From the IMG/VR virus record IMGVR_UViG_3300042936_000137, positions 1-21,540 of that record: DNA of 21,540 nt. One strand, given 5' to 3'. Position 1 is the stretch's first letter; every line of letters begins with the position of its first letter. Made by a program: the position numbers and the translations under genes. Under the pieces are notes generated by a model, which saw only the letters and a program-made list of their open reading frames with translations, was not told the DNA's origin and searched no databases. Below are positions 5,024-17,114 of this stretch, one piece after another. Source of the DNA: a virus.

Positions 5024-5734
5024 ATGATAGGAATTTATAAAATTACAAGCCCAAGTGGCAAAATTTACATTGGTCAAACCACCAATTTTATTAAGAGAAA
5101 GAATTATTACAAGAATGGTGCAAAGCCATATCAAGTAAGGATTTACAATTCATTAGAAAAGTATGGGTATGATGCACATACTATTGAATTTATTGAAGAG
5201 TGTTTAGTAGAAAACCTTAACGAAAGAGAAAGGCATTGGCAAGAATTTTATAATGTTATTGGAGAGAATGGCCTTAACTGTAGGCTAACCGCTACCAATG
5301 ATAAAAGCGGTTTTTTAAGTGAGTCATCTAAACACAAATTAAGTATAGCTAAAAAGAAAGTAGTTATAGATGGCGAATGGAGAGAAAAGTTTGCCTATGA
5401 TTGGAGTGGCAAAAATCATTCAGAACAAACCAAGCGTAAAATGTCTGAATCTGCTAAAGGCAAAAAGAAAACATCTGAACATATATCTAAATTACCTCAA
5501 AATCAAAAAGGCTATAAGCCTAAGCCAAGAAGCGAGGAATTTAGATTAAATCAAAAGCTATTTAATGGCAAATCAAGGGCCGTATCTCAATATGATAAAA
5601 ATGATATTTTAATAAATCAATTTATAAGTGTAGCAGAAGCAAAAAGACAAACAGGTATCAAAACTATAAATTCTGTCGTATTAGGTAAAACAAATACCGC
5701 AGGAGGCTTCAAATGGAAGTACACTAAATTTTAG
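5024..5734 (+). CDS. GIY-YIG homing endonuclease with NUMOD3 and IENR1-type DNA-binding modules
   Basis: This is a selfish nuclease that cuts relatives lacking it and spreads by repair. Residues 3-17 carry the GIY...YIG signature, followed by Arg25, the RIYNSLEKYG helix (39-48) and Glu69 in NERERHW, so the catalytic set looks intact. After it come NUMOD3-like helices (about 98-111 and 128-146, with GKNHSEQTKRKMSESAKGKK) and a C-terminal IENR1/NUMOD1 helix-turn-helix (186-233: SQYDKND, SVAEAKRQTGI, GGFKWKY). The capsid gene before it and the connector after it are both complete, so it is free-standing and not inside an intron. The ATG directly follows the T-run of the terminator. A second terminator-like hairpin lies inside the gene at 5287-5316. 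It plays no part in building the virion. Confidence 0.93.
   Translation: MIGIYKITSPSGKIYIGQTTNFIKRKNYYKNGAKPYQVRIYNSLEKYGYDAHTIEFIEECLVENLNERERHWQEFYNVIGENGLNCRLTATNDKSGFLSESSKHKLSIAKKKVVIDGEWREKFAYDWSGKNHSEQTKRKMSESAKGKKKTSEHISKLPQNQKGYKPKPRSEEFRLNQKLFNGKSRAVSQYDKNDILINQFISVAEAKRQTGIKTINSVVLGKTNTAGGFKWKYTKF
5287..5316 (+). terminator. Possible intragenic terminator/attenuator in the homing endonuclease gene
   Basis: AACCGCT (5287-5293) and AGCGGTT (5306-5312) form a perfect 7-bp stem with a 12-base loop, and the T-run extends to 5316. It lies between the nuclease domain and the DNA-binding modules. The stem is short and could be chance; if active it would reduce full-length message. Confidence 0.3.
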
Positions 5735-8704: not shown

Positions 8705-10923
8705 TGGCTAACGAAGAAGGTGTTAAAATTGTTATAACCGCAGAAGATAGGTTTACTGAAACAATGAAGAAGATTGATGCTTCTTCTAAGATATTTGGTG
8801 AAACAACTAAAAATACACAAAGAAATTTAGAGGCTCTTGAGAAAGAAATGGTTAGGCTTGTTGCTAATGGGTTAGATCCTGCTGATAAAAAGATTAAAGA
8901 GATGAAGGCTAATTATGATAAATTAAGCCAATCTCTTAGTGGTGCAGATGGCCCATTAAAAGTAGCAAATCAAAAATGGATGTCACTTTCTTTAGTTGTA
9001 CAAGATTTACCTTATGGCTTTAGAGGTATCCAAAATAACTTACCTGCATTGGTTGGTAGTTTTGCTGCTGCTGGTGGTGCTATTTATTTTGTATTTTCTG
9101 CACTTATAGCAATAACAACTGCGTACGAGAAAGAAATAAAGGCATTATTTATAACGACAACAGAGGCAGAAAAGCAACAACAATTATATAATAATGTAGT
9201 TAAAGAATCAGGTACTGCGTATATAGATGCACAATCTCAAGTATTATCGCTTACTCAAAAGGTGAAGTTGGCTAAAGATGGTTATATAGATAAACAAAGT
9301 GTTGTAAATGAATATAATGAAACTATTGGCAAAACAATAGGTAAACAAAAAGATTTAGAAGGTGTAAATGAAGCCTTAATAAACCAAGGCCCTGCCTATG
9401 TTGAATATATAAATAAATTATCTTTTGCAATGGCATCTGCTAAATTGGTAGCTGAGCAAAGTGAAAAGATGATTAAAATATCAATGCAAAATGCTACTGA
9501 GTTTGTTGATGGGTGGGATGCATTTTTTAAAGCTAAATGGAATCCATCTGGTATTGTGCAATCTCTTGCAGGTGGCACAATAGAATTACAAAAGTCAGCT
9601 GAAAAGAATAGGCAAATACAATTAGGAGAAGCTGGTAAAACTGCAGTTGGGTATGAAAAAATAATGAATTCTGCTTTTAAATCAGTTGGAGAGGCCGCAA
9701 AAAAAGCAGGTGTTGTTCCAGATGTAGTAAAGCCAGCAACAACAAAATCAGTAAAAAATACTTATCTTTTAGAATCATTAAAAGCCCAACAACAAGCTCA
9801 AAAAGATGATATATATCAGTTTAGGGTTTACGGTGCTCTTATAATAAATGAAGAAGAAAGATTAGCTGTATCTAGAGCTAAGATAGATGGCACATATTTA
9901 CAAAATAAAAAAAACATACACGCTAGATACCAAGCTGATAGGGAAACTAACGATAACTTATTTGAAGCAAATTTAAATAAAATATTAGATGCTAATGAAA
10001 AAATAAGAACTGCACAAGAAAAAAAAGAATTAGAAATACAAGCAGCTAATAGAATAAATATAGCTAAGGGAATATTAGAGATTAATAAAAAATTTGCAGA
10101 AGATGATTTAAGGAATGCCGTTTTATTTGCAAAGAAACAAACATCAAATATTCAAACAGAATTAGGTGTTCAAGATAAGTTAAATAAAAATAACTTAAGT
10201 TTAAGAATAGAAGATACAAAGGCGGCATTAGCTAAATTAGCTGTATTGGCTGCTTTTACATTTGACCCAGCGGTACTTGCGGTTTATTTAGATGCTATTG
10301 ATAAAATAACTGCTAAGTTAGGCGGATTAGGGACTACATGGGAAGACACAACTAAGGCTATTGATTCAGTTATTAAAAGCTTTATAGCAGATTCTTTATT
10401 TTCTTTAGGAGAGTCAATAGGCAATGCATTAATGGGAGAAAATGTAGATGCTATGGAAGCATTTGGAACTATATTAGCAGATGCAATACAATCAATAGGA
10501 AAACAATTAATAGCATATGGACTTGTTAAATTAGCTGCATTAAAAGCATTAGAAACTATGACTCCAATGGGCGCGATGTTAGCAATAGCTGCTGGGGTAG
10601 CAGCGGTAGCAGCAGGTGCAGCATTAAAGGCAAGTTTAAAACAATCAACCGCAAAAAGCGGAGTTAATAGTGGTAGTAGCTCAAATGCACCAAGAAAGTT
10701 TGCTAATGGTGGCATTATTAGTGGGCCTACATATGGCTTAATGGGAGAATATCCTGGTGCTAAATCAAACCCTGAAGTAGTTGCTCCTTTAGACAAACTT
10801 AAAGACATGATTGGAGGAGGTGGAGGTGGAACATTTATGTTAAGAGGACAAGACTTACTTTTGTCTGTAAATAGGGCACAAAAGGCATCAAATCTTAAAG
10901 GACAAAATATTAGTTTAGCATAA
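8704..10923 (+). CDS. Tail tape measure protein
   Basis: This 739-residue protein sets tail length and is ejected into the host envelope at infection. Residues 1-110 are helical with VVQDLPYGFRGIQNNLPAL (98-116), a pattern that I recognise from Bacteroidota tape measures. A hydrophobic stretch at about 113-140 is probably membrane-active. A long coiled region rich in Lys, Gln and Ala follows (about 290-500), then an Ala-rich hydrophobic segment (about 615-645) and the C-terminal FANGGIISGPTYGLMGEYPGAK motif with PEVVAPLDKL, typical of tape measure ends. By the common rule of about 0.15 nm per residue the tail would be near 110 nm. It is coupled by TAATG to both neighbours. Confidence 0.92.
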   Translation: MANEEGVKIVITAEDRFTETMKKIDASSKIFGETTKNTQRNLEALEKEMVRLVANGLDPADKKIKEMKANYDKLSQSLSGADGPLKVANQKWMSLSLVVQDLPYGFRGIQNNLPALVGSFAAAGGAIYFVFSALIAITTAYEKEIKALFITTTEAEKQQQLYNNVVKESGTAYIDAQSQVLSLTQKVKLAKDGYIDKQSVVNEYNETIGKTIGKQKDLEGVNEALINQGPAYVEYINKLSFAMASAKLVAEQSEKMIKISMQNATEFVDGWDAFFKAKWNPSGIVQSLAGGTIELQKSAEKNRQIQLGEAGKTAVGYEKIMNSAFKSVGEAAKKAGVVPDVVKPATTKSVKNTYLLESLKAQQQAQKDDIYQFRVYGALIINEEERLAVSRAKIDGTYLQNKKNIHARYQADRETNDNLFEANLNKILDANEKIRTAQEKKELEIQAANRINIAKGILEINKKFAEDDLRNAVLFAKKQTSNIQTELGVQDKLNKNNLSLRIEDTKAALAKLAVLAAFTFDPAVLAVYLDAIDKITAKLGGLGTTWEDTTKAIDSVIKSFIADSLFSLGESIGNALMGENVDAMEAFGTILADAIQSIGKQLIAYGLVKLAALKALETMTPMGAMLAIAAGVAAVAAGAALKASLKQSTAKSGVNSGSSSNAPRKFANGGIISGPTYGLMGEYPGAKSNPEVVAPLDKLKDMIGGGGGGTFMLRGQDLLLSVNRAQKASNLKGQNISLA

Positions 10924-12905
10924 TGGCATACGGATTAAGATATACATTAACTCAGATACTTCGTAATGGTTCAACATTAGTTGTAAATATTTACGAAAAA
11001 GATCCCTCAGTTGCTACTGTTAAAACATATCAGCCTACAAGTATATTATTACAACCTAATTCAAATAATGAAGATCCATTAGGAGGTATTATATCATCTG
11101 AATTAAATGTTTCTTTTTTAATATCAACTCAAGACGATTATGATAATTTCCCTGATTTGCTAAATGCAGATGATAGGAAGTACTATGTAGAGTTGGTAAA
11201 TGTTGTAGGTGCAAGTACAAATATAAAATGGAAAGGATTTTTATTTAATGATTATATAAACTTACCATTTACAACAGGAAACCAAGAGGTTAATTTTGTA
11301 TGTGTAGATGCTTTATCATATTTAAAATATAATACATATAGTGCATTAGAAGGCAATACAAACGGAATAACAAATCTATTGAGTGTATTAAATACGGCAT
11401 TATATAGCATCGGGTACGATTCTTATACTTACCTATATTCTTGTTGCTCTTATTTTGCAGAAGGGATGATGGATAGGGCGACTTCTACGGATAACGAACC
11501 ATTCGTACAAACATATCAATTTAGAAGAGATTTTGTAGGGTTAGATTACTTTACAATAGTAGATAATATTGTTAAGTCTTTTGGTTGTAGATTATTCCAA
11601 TACCAAGGTAATTGGTGGATTATGTCTATAAATGAAATGGCTGGTACAACAAACTATTATACAAAATACTTGTTAGATACCGTTGTTTATTTAACAGAAT
11701 CAGGAACATTAACTGCAGGTATTTCTATTGATCCTTATAGTGAAGGCAATGTGCACTTTATTAATAATAGTCAAACCAAAATAACAAAAAAGGGGTATTC
11801 TAGGCTTAAGGTAACAACACCATATTCCTATGCTAAAAACTATATAAACGATGGTGATTTTAAGCAATATATAAACTCTACTACTGCTCCAGTTGGATTT
11901 ACTGCTGGATTAGCGGGGACAGGTTCTTTAACTGTTTATCAATACCCAGATGATGAATTTAATGATGTTAGAATACAACAATCAGGCACAGGTGTAGCCA
12001 CTTTTAAAACAACAGGCGAAATAGGCGCTCTTGGCTATTTGCCTAAAATGGGGAATAGTAATGCGACATTATCTTTTACATATACCCTATATTCTACATT
12101 GGGATTTGGTGTTACAGGACTTTGTTATTTACTTGTAAGATTATTTGTTGGCTCAAATGCATATATTTTAGATTCAAATGGCAATTGGTCAAATGATATA
12201 AATACATACATTTTATTGCCACCATCAAATCCGCCTATAGGAGGTGTGACAGATAGAAGGCCAACGCAATCGTATTCACTTGATATACCATTAGGAAAAA
12301 ACACTCTTAACAATGTTGATGTAGCTATAGGGTATATAAGTATAGGTTTTGTAGTAAGCTCTGCTTCTAGTTTATTTAGATTCAATAATTTATCTTTAAC
12401 ACAATCAAATGCTCAATATAATGTACTTGAAGTAGAAAGAAAATTAGGTACAAATGAAGCATTATTAAAAGAAATAGAAATACCTTATGGTGCTAATTAT
12501 CCTGATTTAACAGTACCTAATACCATTGGTTCACTTTTTAATAACTCATTAGTTAAGTTGCAGAATTGGTATAGATATGGCAAGGCTGGGACATATAGTA
12601 ATTTAACACAATTAATATGTAGACAATATTCAAATATATTCAATAAAAACCTTGCTACAGTAGAAGGTGATTTAGGTATATCTGAATCTTCTAATAGTAC
12701 TATATATTTGAATAAAAAGTATCATGTAGCTGATTCTACTAACCCCGTTTTAACTGCTAATAATTTAAGCTATAACGATAAGACATTTATGGCTAATAGA
12801 TTAACTGTAGATAGTTATGGGGATAGAACAACATCATTACAATTATTAGAGATTACAAATACCGATAACGCATCAGTAGAAACAATAAAATACTTAGGCT
12901 CTTAA
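10923..12905 (+). CDS. Tail tip / baseplate protein (Dit-Tal region)
   Basis: Position directly after the tape measure indicates a distal tail or hub protein. The 660-residue product begins with a Dit-like beta region: RYTLTQILRNGSTLVVNIYEKD, QPTSILLQPNSNNEDPLGGIISSELNVSFLI, FPDLLNADDRKYYVEL, IKWKGFLFNDYINLPFTTGNQEVNFVCVDALSYLKY (about residues 100-135). That combination of a strand-rich N terminus, a short W-K-G-F-L motif and a C-V-D-A-L-S-Y-L motif is seen in Bacteroidota phage tail proteins. Later parts (about 300-480) look like a beta-sandwich, and the C-terminal third carries a LYR-type repeat-free beta domain. I cannot assign an enzymatic domain. It is most likely a merged Dit/Tal-like hub protein; the exact role is inferred from order. 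Confidence 0.65.
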   Translation: MAYGLRYTLTQILRNGSTLVVNIYEKDPSVATVKTYQPTSILLQPNSNNEDPLGGIISSELNVSFLISTQDDYDNFPDLLNADDRKYYVELVNVVGASTNIKWKGFLFNDYINLPFTTGNQEVNFVCVDALSYLKYNTYSALEGNTNGITNLLSVLNTALYSIGYDSYTYLYSCCSYFAEGMMDRATSTDNEPFVQTYQFRRDFVGLDYFTIVDNIVKSFGCRLFQYQGNWWIMSINEMAGTTNYYTKYLLDTVVYLTESGTLTAGISIDPYSEGNVHFINNSQTKITKKGYSRLKVTTPYSYAKNYINDGDFKQYINSTTAPVGFTAGLAGTGSLTVYQYPDDEFNDVRIQQSGTGVATFKTTGEIGALGYLPKMGNSNATLSFTYTLYSTLGFGVTGLCYLLVRLFVGSNAYILDSNGNWSNDINTYILLPPSNPPIGGVTDRRPTQSYSLDIPLGKNTLNNVDVAIGYISIGFVVSSASSLFRFNNLSLTQSNAQYNVLEVERKLGTNEALLKEIEIPYGANYPDLTVPNTIGSLFNNSLVKLQNWYRYGKAGTYSNLTQLICRQYSNIFNKNLATVEGDLGISESSNSTIYLNKKYHVADSTNPVLTANNLSYNDKTFMANRLTVDSYGDRTTSLQLLEITNTDNASVETIKYLGS

Positions 12906-12917
12906 ATAACTTTAACT

Positions 12918-14096
12918 ATGGCATCAGTAATAAACGGAACGAATATAGTCTTATATGAATATGATAGCAACGCTATCTATTACTTTAATGGAGGTACTGC
13001 ACAAGGCACTTTTGATAGTATTGTGTGTAAGGAATTAAGCAGAACACAAGTAGCAGGTACTTCAGTTAACTTTAATAAAACAGGAGCAGGTACAATAGCT
13101 TCGTTTATTACGGATGCACTTGATCCTGGTGTTACAACCATACCAGCAGGTACTTGGACTTTTAGTGCTTATTATTCTATTGCCAATCTAGTTTCAGTAC
13201 CTCAAATTAAGTACGAACTATATAAATATAATGGTAGTATTGCTACCTTATTATTTTCATCCGTAGAAACCAATATAACATCCATGACAACGAGCTTATA
13301 TTCTACGGCAATGACAGTCACTCAAACGACTATAGGTGCCACAGATAGGCTTCTAATTAAGGTTATTTACGCAGGTGCAAGTAGTAATCCAGTTACTTTT
13401 TATACCCAATCAACTAATGTAGCTCAAGTAACTACAACTATACCACTAGGAACTCCAATGGGAGCTTCAACAAGTTGCTCGTTTGAGGCATCTACTGAAC
13501 AAGTAGAAGTAACCTCTCAAACCTCAGCTTGGTTTAGGCAGTTTAAGAGTGACATTACTTCTTGGACAGTTAATTGTGATGGGTTTATAGCCTTAAGTGG
13601 TTACTCCTATCTTGCTTTAATGCAGAAGCAATTAGACAGAGCTTCAATAGATGTTAGATTCTCAATAGACAATGACAATGCAGATGCTAGTGATACCTAT
13701 GGCTACTCAATAGTAAGCGGTACTGCTAACATTACATCTATTAGTTTAAGTGCTCCTGTAGAGGGTGCATCTACTTATTCATTGGCATTACAGGGAACAG
13801 GTGCTTATGCAATCACAGGAACTCAAGTTATAGACGGAGGTTCTACAATATCAACTTCAAGCGTGAATAGTTTTTCTTATACGGCAGCAGGTGGTGAAAC
13901 AACTGTTACATTCTCAGGTGCAATCGGATCTACTTGTATATCAGTTACAAGAGGTGGTGTAGAGGTTAGAGCGATAGCTACAAGCGGTGTACCAACGGAT
14001 GAGAATGTTACCTTTAATAGTGCCACAGGAGTTCTTACCTTTGCAACGGCAAGACCACTAGAAGTGGATGAGTTTGTAAGAATGATTGTAAAATAA
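12918..14096 (+). CDS. Tail-tube-like protein with inserted beta domain and C-terminal Ig-like domain
   Basis: Residues 5-15 (INGTNIVLYEY) and 184-300 follow the same strand order as the phage's own tail tube protein (7536-7991): STSCSFE/ATSCSLS, WTVNCDGF/WSLTTDGL, IDVRFS/VTVKFT, SIVSGTANITSISLSA/IYSGSAFIESVDMTA, and STYSLALQGTGAYAI/VTYSVSFKGTGPLTI. Between the first two strands lies an insertion of about 160 residues (17-178), rich in Thr/Ser and beta strands with PAGTWTFSAYYSI and TDRLLIKVIYAG. Residues ~312-392 form another beta module (FSYTAAGGETTVTFSGAIG, VTRGGVEV, FVRMIVK) found at the ends of phage tail proteins. It may form a terminal ring or a decorated tail-tip part. Paralogy is by eye, so it should be tested by profile alignment. 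Confidence 0.7.
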   Translation: MASVINGTNIVLYEYDSNAIYYFNGGTAQGTFDSIVCKELSRTQVAGTSVNFNKTGAGTIASFITDALDPGVTTIPAGTWTFSAYYSIANLVSVPQIKYELYKYNGSIATLLFSSVETNITSMTTSLYSTAMTVTQTTIGATDRLLIKVIYAGASSNPVTFYTQSTNVAQVTTTIPLGTPMGASTSCSFEASTEQVEVTSQTSAWFRQFKSDITSWTVNCDGFIALSGYSYLALMQKQLDRASIDVRFSIDNDNADASDTYGYSIVSGTANITSISLSAPVEGASTYSLALQGTGAYAITGTQVIDGGSTISTSSVNSFSYTAAGGETTVTFSGAIGSTCISVTRGGVEVRAIATSGVPTDENVTFNSATGVLTFATARPLEVDEFVRMIVK

Positions 14097-14111: not shown

Positions 14112-17100
14112 ATGAGTAATCAACTACAGTTGACAGGAGGTGCGAAAGTTAGGGATTTACAAGATGTCATTATTGGCACAAGTGGAGTGTTAAGTTCTTT
14201 GGCTTTTAATGTGGCTAATGGTGTACCAAAGCTTGATGTGAATGGAAAGATATTAGTATCTCAGTTGCCTAATTCGGTTATGGAATATAAAGGAGTTTGG
14301 AACGCTGCTGCTAATAGCCCAACCTTAACTAATGGTGGTGCTTTTAATGAGGGGGATGTTTATCTGTGTAATGTTGCAGGTACTGTTAACTTCGGTGCAG
14401 GGCCTATTTCTTTTATAGTTGGGGATCAAGCTATTTATAGCGGCTCAGTATGGCAGAAAGCAGGTGGTGCTACAGGAACGGTAACCTCGGTTGGCTTATC
14501 TACTAACGCAGGTGCAATAACAATCGGCAATTCTCCCATCAGTACAAGCGGTACGATAACTGCTAATTTCAACGGAACTAATCTTCAATATGTAAACGGA
14601 GCAGGAAACTTGACAACCTTTCCTGATTTAAGTGTTTATGTAACTTTAGCAGGCACTCAAACCATTACAGGTTCAAAAACATTTAGCAGTACTGCATTAT
14701 TTGATACGAGTACTTTATTTAAAAAAGTAGGCTCTCCTTATATTACAAGTGCAGGATATACTTCATTACAATTTACCGCTAGTGGAACTAATACAAGTTT
14801 ATACATAACGGATGGAGATTCGGTTACATCTAATAGACTAATATTTAAAAACAATGCAGGATATGATTATACATTCCCTGCTGCTTCAGGAACTATTGCA
14901 TTAACATCGGACATTCCTATTTTAACAGGATATGTTCCCTACACAGGTGCAACTGCAAATGTTGATTTAGGTACATTTAATTTGACTGCTGATGTTATTA
15001 CAGGAGCAACAGGTTCTTTTACATCAAATGGTGGTAGTGATACATTTGCTATTAATCATTCAAGCGGTGCAGGGATTGCTTTGAATATTACTAAAGGTGG
15101 TAATGGCGAAGGATTATACATAAACAAGACAAGTGGAAGCGGAAACGCAGCAACGATAATAGGTACATTAAACGCAACTACTTTAGTAAAGAGTGGTGGC
15201 ACATCAAGTCAGTTCTTAAAGGCTGATGGTACAGTTGATTCAAGCACATACGCTTTAGATTCAGCAGTAGTTCATTTAGCAGGAACGGAAACAATCACAG
15301 GTGCTAAAACATTTACCGCTGCATTAGTAGGAGCAACTTCTACATTTACAAATGCAGGAAGTGGCATAGGTGTAGGGATTACATTAAGCGGTGCTAGTGG
15401 AGATGGTTTAAAAGTTACTCATTCAGCAGGTAGGGCTTTAAATATAGCATCAAGTGGAGCAGGGTATGGCATTATTATAAACAATGATACTGCATCTACT
15501 TCAATACCTTTTACTATTCAAAAATCAGGTAGCAATGTTATTACAATGTCCGATACAGGTGCAGCTAACTTTACAGGTCAGCTTACTTTAGGCTCAACTA
15601 TTACAAACGGAGCAAGTACATATACGCTACCATCATCTTCAGGAACATTAGCTTTAACAAGTGCGTTAAGTGCTTACCTACCATTAGCGGGGGGAACTTT
15701 AACAGGTCCTTTGGGTGGAACAAGTGCAATTTTTAGTGGTGCTTCTTATCCAATAGTTCAAGTTGTTGCAAGTGCTACATTTCCTATTTTATCTTTAAAC
15801 AATTCAGGACAATCTTCACAATGGAATATAGAAGTTGGTAGAACTACAAGTGGTAATTTAGAGTTTTATAATAGTGGAACAAAACTATCACTTACATCTT
15901 TAGGTAACTTAGGATTAGGAGTTACACCAAGTGCGTGGAGTCAAATTACTGCAATAGAATTATCTAATGGAGTTTCTTTTGGTGCTTATAGTGGTGCTGC
16001 TGCACCAAATATGTATGCAACAAGTAATGCTTATTATAATGGTACTAATTGGATATATAAACTTTCATCTTATGCACCTACATTATATGTTCAAAATTCT
16101 TTAGGTAATTATGTTTGGAATACCGCACCTTCAGGAACAGGAACTATAACCTTTACCCAAGCAATGACCTTATTTAGTGATGGTAATTTACTTTTAACAA
16201 ATGGAACAGTATCTAACGCAGGCTACAAGCTAGATGTTAATGGTACAGGAAGGTTTAGTTCAACTGTTCAAGGTGCTAGTTTTTATGTTCCATCTACTGT
16301 TTTTACTCCAAGTGTACCCGCTTATCAAACACTTGTTAAATATGGTCAAACAAATACATTTGCAGAAATTCAAGGAGGTAATTTAAACCTTGATAATTTT
16401 TCTACATATTTAAGATTTATAGTAAATGGTACTGCTTCTAATACTCCTTTAGTTGCATTAACATTAGCTAATACAGGAGCAGCTACATTCTCTAGTAGTG
16501 TAGGAGTGGGTGGAACTGCAACAAATAGGTTAACAGTATTAGGTGCTGAAACAGGCACACAAATTACAACTATCCCAATAGGTAAATTTGTAAATACAGG
16601 AAATTCATTTTCTAAATTAGTTTTAGGTTCGGATAACGCTAACTTTGATGCAGTTGTTTCAATGGACAATAATGCAACATTAGCAAATTGTAAATTAAGA
16701 TTTTATATTGGTAATGGTACAGGTTCTACCGCAGGTCATTCAAACGACCAATTAGTTTTAACAGGTGGAGGCAATGTATTAATAGGAACTACTACTAACA
16801 ATACAGGATTGCTTCAAGTAAATGGTACTATTTATGCCACAGGTTTTTACGAAAGTTCGGACATAAGATTTAAAAATATAATAGAAACAAATCCAAATGT
16901 AAATGTATTAGGAATAGATGTAATTAAATTTACTCGTAAAGACAATGATACTAATCAAGTAAGATATGGTTATTCTGCACAACAAGTTCAGTCTATATTA
17001 CCTGATGCGGTTACAGGAACTGATTTCTTAAATGTAAACTATTTAGATGTGCATACTTTAAAGATTGCACAATTAGAACAAGAGATTAAAGAACTAAAAG

Positions 17101-17114
17101 CTAAAATGAATTAA
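14112..17114 (+). CDS. Tail fibre/spike with C-terminal S74 intramolecular chaperone
   Basis: This 1000-residue protein is the likely host-binding fibre. Residues 1-50 hold an attachment-type segment, 57-117 a beta domain (YKGVWNAAANSP ... YSGSVWQKA), and a long shaft of Gly/Ser/Thr-rich repeats follows. Two copies of an LAGTxTITGxKTF unit lie at 179-191 and 389-401, and ASGTIALTS/SSGTLALTS also recurs. Residues ~913-1000 form the chaperone of endosialidase (S74): SSDIRFKN at 915-922, VRYGYSAQQVQSILPDAV, and a final coiled coil LKIAQLEQEIKELKAKMN. In this family the trimer folds, then the chaperone cuts itself off next to the S-D-x-R-x-K motif. Two small genes, possibly accessory, follow. Confidence 0.92.
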   Translation: MSNQLQLTGGAKVRDLQDVIIGTSGVLSSLAFNVANGVPKLDVNGKILVSQLPNSVMEYKGVWNAAANSPTLTNGGAFNEGDVYLCNVAGTVNFGAGPISFIVGDQAIYSGSVWQKAGGATGTVTSVGLSTNAGAITIGNSPISTSGTITANFNGTNLQYVNGAGNLTTFPDLSVYVTLAGTQTITGSKTFSSTALFDTSTLFKKVGSPYITSAGYTSLQFTASGTNTSLYITDGDSVTSNRLIFKNNAGYDYTFPAASGTIALTSDIPILTGYVPYTGATANVDLGTFNLTADVITGATGSFTSNGGSDTFAINHSSGAGIALNITKGGNGEGLYINKTSGSGNAATIIGTLNATTLVKSGGTSSQFLKADGTVDSSTYALDSAVVHLAGTETITGAKTFTAALVGATSTFTNAGSGIGVGITLSGASGDGLKVTHSAGRALNIASSGAGYGIIINNDTASTSIPFTIQKSGSNVITMSDTGAANFTGQLTLGSTITNGASTYTLPSSSGTLALTSALSAYLPLAGGTLTGPLGGTSAIFSGASYPIVQVVASATFPILSLNNSGQSSQWNIEVGRTTSGNLEFYNSGTKLSLTSLGNLGLGVTPSAWSQITAIELSNGVSFGAYSGAAAPNMYATSNAYYNGTNWIYKLSSYAPTLYVQNSLGNYVWNTAPSGTGTITFTQAMTLFSDGNLLLTNGTVSNAGYKLDVNGTGRFSSTVQGASFYVPSTVFTPSVPAYQTLVKYGQTNTFAEIQGGNLNLDNFSTYLRFIVNGTASNTPLVALTLANTGAATFSSSVGVGGTATNRLTVLGAETGTQITTIPIGKFVNTGNSFSKLVLGSDNANFDAVVSMDNNATLANCKLRFYIGNGTGSTAGHSNDQLVLTGGGNVLIGTTTNNTGLLQVNGTIYATGFYESSDIRFKNIIETNPNVNVLGIDVIKFTRKDNDTNQVRYGYSAQQVQSILPDAVTGTDFLNVNYLDVHTLKIAQLEQEIKELKAKMN

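Follow-up and report, generated by a model that had tools for sequence, protein, structure and literature searches.

A second tail-tube protein, encoded past the putative tail hub and carrying an inserted domain, was identified in an uncultured bacterial virus (IMG/VR record IMGVR_UViG_3300042936_000137), of which a stretch of 21,540 nt, called here the window, was analysed. On the basis of sequence profiles, this 392-amino-acid protein, P0001, contains a tail-tube domain (residues 5-16 and 179-300) that is homologous to the main tube of the phage. Such a paralogue is regularly present in the phage group; less ordinary is that its insert is optional, is swapped by recombination and also occurs in the fibres of relatives. 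The reading we favour, with a probability of roughly 60%, is that the paralogue builds a tail-tip ring, in which the C-terminal domain docks the fibre and the insert is an outward adhesion domain. The features discussed are listed in Table 1.

Table 1. Tail genes of the window and domains of the tube paralogue P0001 (positions are those of the window)
Feature	Position	Strand	Evidence or content
Major tail tube gene, paralogue of P0001, 151 aa	7536..7991	+	PF06199, PHROG_1407
Probable tape measure protein, 739 aa	8704..10923	+	Length and position; no strong family match
Putative tail hub, 660 aa, directly upstream of the paralogue	10923..12905	+	Follows the tape measure; homologue of phi10:1 gp088 and 11b gp43
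Tip tube paralogue P0001 (putative), 392 aa	12918..14096	+	Tube domain, inserted jelly roll and C-terminal docking-like domain
First tube strand, residues 5-16, ahead of the insertion	12930..12965	+	Alignment with insert-free homologues; model strand 9-16
Inserted domain, residues 17-178, predicted jelly roll	12966..13451	+	pLDDT ~90; PaL match; missing in some homologues; fibre homologues
Tube domain remainder, residues 179-302	13452..13823	+	PF06199, PHROG_1407, hhalign
C-terminal domain, residues 312-392, XD3-like fold of tailspike-assembly proteins (predicted)	13851..14093	+	pLDDT ~90; structural matches of L097
Tail fibre, 1000 aa, directly downstream, without the insert domain	14112..17114	+	PHROG tail matches, Peptidase_S74

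Homology to the main tail tube

The two tube proteins of the window were compared by BLASTP, in which residues 181-299 of P0001 aligned with residues 21-147 of the main tube at 27% identity (E=9e-9), while the remaining regions of P0001 gave chance scores only. The Pfam family PF06199 (Phage_tail_2) matched residues 185-297 of P0001 with 33.2 bits (E=6e-8) and the main tube with 29.9 bits, against a gathering cut-off of 23.8, and PHROG_1407 ('major tail protein') was common to both proteins. Profile-profile comparison of the paralogue family with the main tube family by hhalign gave a probability of 98.4 (E=5.5e-15) over 120 columns. The initial annotation, made by eye, had matched residues 5-15 and 184-300 to the tube and had named three anchors. 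All of these anchors were found in both proteins, namely S-C-S (as TSCS), W-x-x-x-x-D-G (W216-x4-D221-G222 in P0001, W56-x4-D61-G62 in the tube) and G-T-G-x-x-x-I (293-299 in P0001, 141-147 in the tube). The first strand (NGTNIVLY in P0001, NGTSLVVL in the main tube) is too short to be scored alone; in an insert-free homologue, from locus L097, it is unbroken with the rest of the domain, and residues 6-148 of that ORF aligned with residues 4-148 of the window tube (E=4e-11). The proposed match was borne out by BLASTP, PF06199, PHROG_1407, hhalign and the L097 alignment, and residues 184-300 proved to have profile matches to the tube (PF06199, hhalign) rather than an unrelated fold. A search of the window record placed relatives at two positions only, the paralogue gene and the main tube gene. 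At least 139 stretches of viral contigs encode relatives of the paralogue, and scans of cellular genome contigs found no relatives.

The main tube and the paralogue were compared with each other by profiles, and models of the paralogue were compared with solved tubes. The order of strands and helix in the P0001 model fits the tube fold (two sheets and one helix, with a long loop), and residues 7-300 aligned discontinuously to tail tubes, the insert being skipped. The tube part matched the monocin and GTA tubes with a VIA Z of about 10 and an rmsd of 5-6, this fit being poor because the tube part was modelled at low confidence (AlphaFold pLDDT ~60, both with the insert in P0001 and without it in L097). 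For the insert-free homologue, the leading Foldseek matches were tail tubes. Given the low pLDDT, sequence profiles carry more weight than the model in the tube assignment.

Natural variants and relatives of the insert and the C-terminal domain

The initial annotation had placed about 160 inserted residues after the first strand. This was confirmed with insert-free homologues in an alignment of 32 sequences, in which the strands flanking the insert gap are conserved. The fetched loci presented the window type (insert, tube and C-terminal domain), a form of about 235 aa with tube and C-terminal domain (e.g. L097, L240), a form with insert and tube (L145) and the tube alone (L151, 136 aa). The L145 and L151 proteins are ~92% identical in the tube part and both have MPSVVNGENVILY at the N-terminus, but at the insertion site one of the two has ~160 residues (L145) and the other ~8 (L151). 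Because such insert-free natural homologues exist, one of them in a pair this close, the insert can be described as a true domain insertion. In the tube-domain tree, well-supported branches force at least five gains or losses of the insert; the few rows labelled 'MTP' in this tree are insert-free paralogues, and the count is unaffected by them. Identities to the window protein in insert, tube and C-terminus, respectively, were 99%, 54% and 94% for L033 and 81%, 97% and 83% for L019. As the identities of the parts vary independently, the parts have been exchanged by recombination. Pooled dN/dS, from pairs that are not independent, was ~0.11 for the tube part, 0.28 for the insert and 0.43 for the C-terminal domain, which is consistent with a constrained ring bearing changing peripheral parts.

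The expectation that the insertion would be a separate domain agreed with the AlphaFold model, in which residues 20-175 were predicted with confidence (pLDDT ~90). The best structural matches by VIA-align were jelly-roll domains of CocE/PepX-type hydrolases, with the PaL domain at Z 15.7 (rmsd 2.5 over 150 residues) and cocaine esterase at Z 14.4. Lower scores were obtained for the BcsB crown (9.0), a GH51 arabinofuranosidase (8.9) and the central fibre of mycobacteriophage Douge (8.5). The hydrolase jelly rolls belong to the galactose-binding-like group; these are accessory domains and not proven sugar binders, and the insert itself may bind sugars. Searches of the insert against Pfam, PHROG and PDB sequences gave no significant match, with chance matches only in the PDB. 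Relatives of the insert are encoded in at least 575 stretches of viral contigs. In many relatives the fibre protein of the following gene contains a homologue (residues ~231-393 or 55-218). Others were found in a collagen-like fibre from the 642-kb record of an uncultured phage (LR756502, locus L152) and among the predicted fibre structures of uncultured phages. The insert is an exchangeable cassette, of which relatives carry a copy in the ring, the fibre or both. Within the window, no match to the insert family was found outside 12918-14096, the window's own fibre included. That fibre has an S74 intramolecular chaperone domain (PF13884) at its end, and a BppL_N-like match to it fell just under the Pfam cut-off.

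The possibility that the insert was recently copied between ring gene and fibre gene within a genome was considered and rejected, as ring and fibre copies were 34-45% identical within a genome and 30-47% identical across genomes. The copies also fall on two sides of the tree, in line with this rejection, although the split is weakly supported. In the sample of loci anchored on the hub (fibres of at least 400 aa), insert-free rings were followed by an insert-bearing fibre in 17 of 18 cases and insert-bearing rings in 6 of 12 (Fisher p=0.009, without correction for kinship). A first sample for this pairing was biased, because its loci had been found through fibre copies of the insert; the trend persists in the hub-anchored sample.

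The initial annotation was right about the tube domain and the insert, and had overlooked a third domain at residues 312-392. Its fold was assessed on the model of the L097 homologue, of which residues 160-236 (pLDDT ~90) matched residues 123-191 of phage B2 gp49 (VIA Z 9.2, rmsd 1.7, 27% identity) and residues 265-332 of CBA120 TSP4 (Z 8.9, rmsd 1.6, 28% identity). Neither a galectin nor an OB fold was among the structural matches listed for this model, and comparison of the C-terminal domain with PDB sequences gave chance matches only. The XD domains of TSP4 mediate the assembly of a branched tailspike complex, and their fold is common to the domains of T4 gp10 that bind gp11 and gp12 (PMC8825819); B2 gp49 forms a tailspike complex with gp48 (PMC11654681). 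In two loci, L213 and L217 (5069-5506 in both), a related C-terminal domain is carried by a 146-aa protein of its own, encoded immediately ahead of the fibre. By analogy, the XD-like fold and this separate copy suggest that the C-terminal domain holds the fibre.

Gene order and cultured relatives

The window order is tape measure, putative hub, tube paralogue and fibre, so that the paralogue does lie between a tail-tip gene and the fibre, far from the tube gene, as had been described. The hub gave chance matches only against PDB sequences and no match against the phage collection. Loci were sampled by homology to the hub and not to the paralogue, and 69 of them had enough sequence past the hub. 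A tube paralogue followed the hub in all 69 loci, at 4.2-5.0 kb from the tube gene, and was directly the next gene in 66. These 66 adjoining paralogues comprised 30 with tube and C-terminal domain, 28 with the insert and 8 with the tube alone; the insert was present in the ring paralogue in 28 of the 69 loci and absent from 41. In the other three loci an HNH gene came first after the hub, and then the tube paralogue; this 166-aa HNH endonuclease-like ORF lies at 6457-6954 in L305, 4131-4628 in L312 and 3825-4322 in L316. In at least seven loci of the sample the hub is followed by two tip paralogues in tandem (133-137 aa and about 220 aa), which overlap by about 30 nt and are present besides any main tube gene (e.g. 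L257 2520-3558, L259 7180-8206, L264 7971-9003). Directly after the tip paralogue, L145 (7210-9186) and L151 (7716-9410) encode proteins of 565-659 aa with a tube-like N-terminal domain and long Thr-rich linkers.

The capsid protein of the window was nearest to those of Cellulophaga phage phi10:1 and Flavobacterium phage 11b. Each of these phages has a tube protein (gp084 and gp36, respectively) and a second PHROG_1407 protein directly past the hub (gp089 and gp44), without an insert. These second proteins resemble P0001 in family and position, but they are ~170 aa long and have a C-terminal tail unlike that of P0001. A Bacteroidota host is likely for the present virus, because its capsid and tube-paralogue layout resemble those of phi10:1 and 11b. 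A tube paralogue at this position is standard in the group (69/69 loci) and is also present in both cultured phages. A GIY-YIG homing endonuclease gene (PHROG_314, E=8e-28) was observed in the window at 5024-5734, flanked by the genes for the major capsid protein and the head-tail adaptor.

Proposed role and comparison with known tail tips

Gene position, fold similarity and precedent are the grounds on which ring formation, a location at the tip and ligand binding are proposed. The tube domains would form a hexameric ring adjoining the last tube ring or the hub, by analogy with T5 p140, and the C-terminal domain would dock the fibre of the next gene. The inserted jelly roll would face outward and assist in adhesion, most likely to surface glycans, a role that would parallel that of the carbohydrate-binding modules of 'evolved' Dits (PMC7291167).

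The principle has precedents. T5 p140 arose by duplication of the tube protein, and its ring lies between the tube and the distal tail protein, inside the fibre-bearing collar (PMC10038345). P0001 is like p140 in being a tube-protein paralogue encoded in the tip module (BLASTP, hhalign and the hub-anchored sample) and in being thought to form a tip ring for fibre attachment. The two differ in that p140 has two fused tube domains (as a trimer) and no extra domain, whereas P0001 has one tube domain, the insert and the C-terminal domain; moreover, the location of p140 in the virion is known, whereas that of P0001 is predicted. An optional beta-rich module in a tube-fold tip protein is also present in the evolved Dits of Lactobacillus phage J-1 and of lactococcal and streptococcal phages (PMC7291167), just as the extra domain of the present paralogues is optional within their group. 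In those Dits the module is inserted in the peripheral galectin domain and has been found by experiment to bind host cells, whereas the insert of P0001 occupies the loop between strands 1 and 2 of the tube domain and its adhesion is predicted. In the YSD1 major tube protein, a beta-sandwich is likewise inserted into a tube-fold protein (PMC8718954); there, domain2 follows helix 1 and precedes strand 4 of the main tube protein and stabilises the ring, while P0001 is a putative tip paralogue. The C-terminal domain shares its fold with CBA120 TSP4 XD3 and T4 gp10 (PMC8825819) and with B2 gp49 (PMC11654681), at Z ~9 for TSP4 and B2 gp49; in CBA120, T4 and B2 the docking-type domain is within tailspike or baseplate proteins, and in P0001 it forms one chain with a tube domain. 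A receptor-binding ring built from a tube paralogue with an inserted domain had been put forward as an unusual construction, yet tube-fold tip rings and domain-decorated Dit or tube proteins are known (PMC10038345, PMC7291167, PMC8718954).

These comparisons also bear on other roles for the paralogue. It might be the group's equivalent of Dit, with the ring acting as an adaptor that joins the tube to the hub and the insert corresponding to the decoration of an 'evolved Dit'; this option differs from the favoured reading mainly in the exact position and name of the ring. A tube-fold ring domain joined to a C-terminal beta domain and an inserted module would fit such a protein, as would its place near the hub in every member of the group, and no other Dit candidate was recognised by Pfam or PHROG between the tape measure and the fibre. 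However, siphophage dit genes have so far been found directly after tmp and before tal (PMC7291167), and here the hub comes first. Together with the lack of a match to a Pfam Dit family, and with a C-terminal domain whose listed structural matches include tailspike-assembly domains and no galectin or OB fold, this makes a Dit equivalent rather unlikely. A minor subunit of the tail shaft, decorated by the jelly roll in the manner of the Ig-like extensions of SPP1, lambda and T5, is far less credible. Decorated shafts are common (PMC8718954), and the hhalign result shows close fold kinship with the major tube, but the gene is past the hub and kilobases from the tube gene in all sampled loci, has a docking-type C-terminal domain and keeps the same separate position in phi10:1 and 11b.

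The insert could alternatively be structural, stabilising the ring or contacting neighbouring subunits without binding the host, as YSD1 domain2 does in its ring (PMC8718954), and no evidence of a ligand site was found in the insert. Its dispensability in the hub-anchored sample, its recurrence in fibres and in the collagen-like fibre of the 642-kb phage record, and its faster change compared with the tube part argue against this, and we consider it unlikely. Returning to the tip ring with a docked fibre and an outward adhesion domain, the gene looks like a modular host-attachment part assembled from known kinds of pieces. No description of the combination of a tube paralogue with an optional, shuffled insert was found in the literature covered, which included few subscription papers.

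A broader picture, which we put forward tentatively and with the odds somewhat against it, is that in these probable Bacteroidota siphophages, as a widespread group, an obligate tip ring made of the tube paralogue serves as an exchangeable display platform. The cassette would be carried in the ring, the fibre or both in nearly every virion; ring, cassette and docking domain would recombine independently, and some members would have two tandem paralogues that differ in their decorations. Naming the insert family would aid the annotation of fibres in hundreds of uncultured phage contigs, because the insert is without a Pfam, PHROG or PDB sequence match, and L145 and L151 offer a natural pair, with and without the module, for probing its role. 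If the proposed role is true, the tip tube paralogue would be a recognisable standard component of little-studied phages, and an adhesion-type module would be insertable into a tube-fold subunit without breaking the fold.
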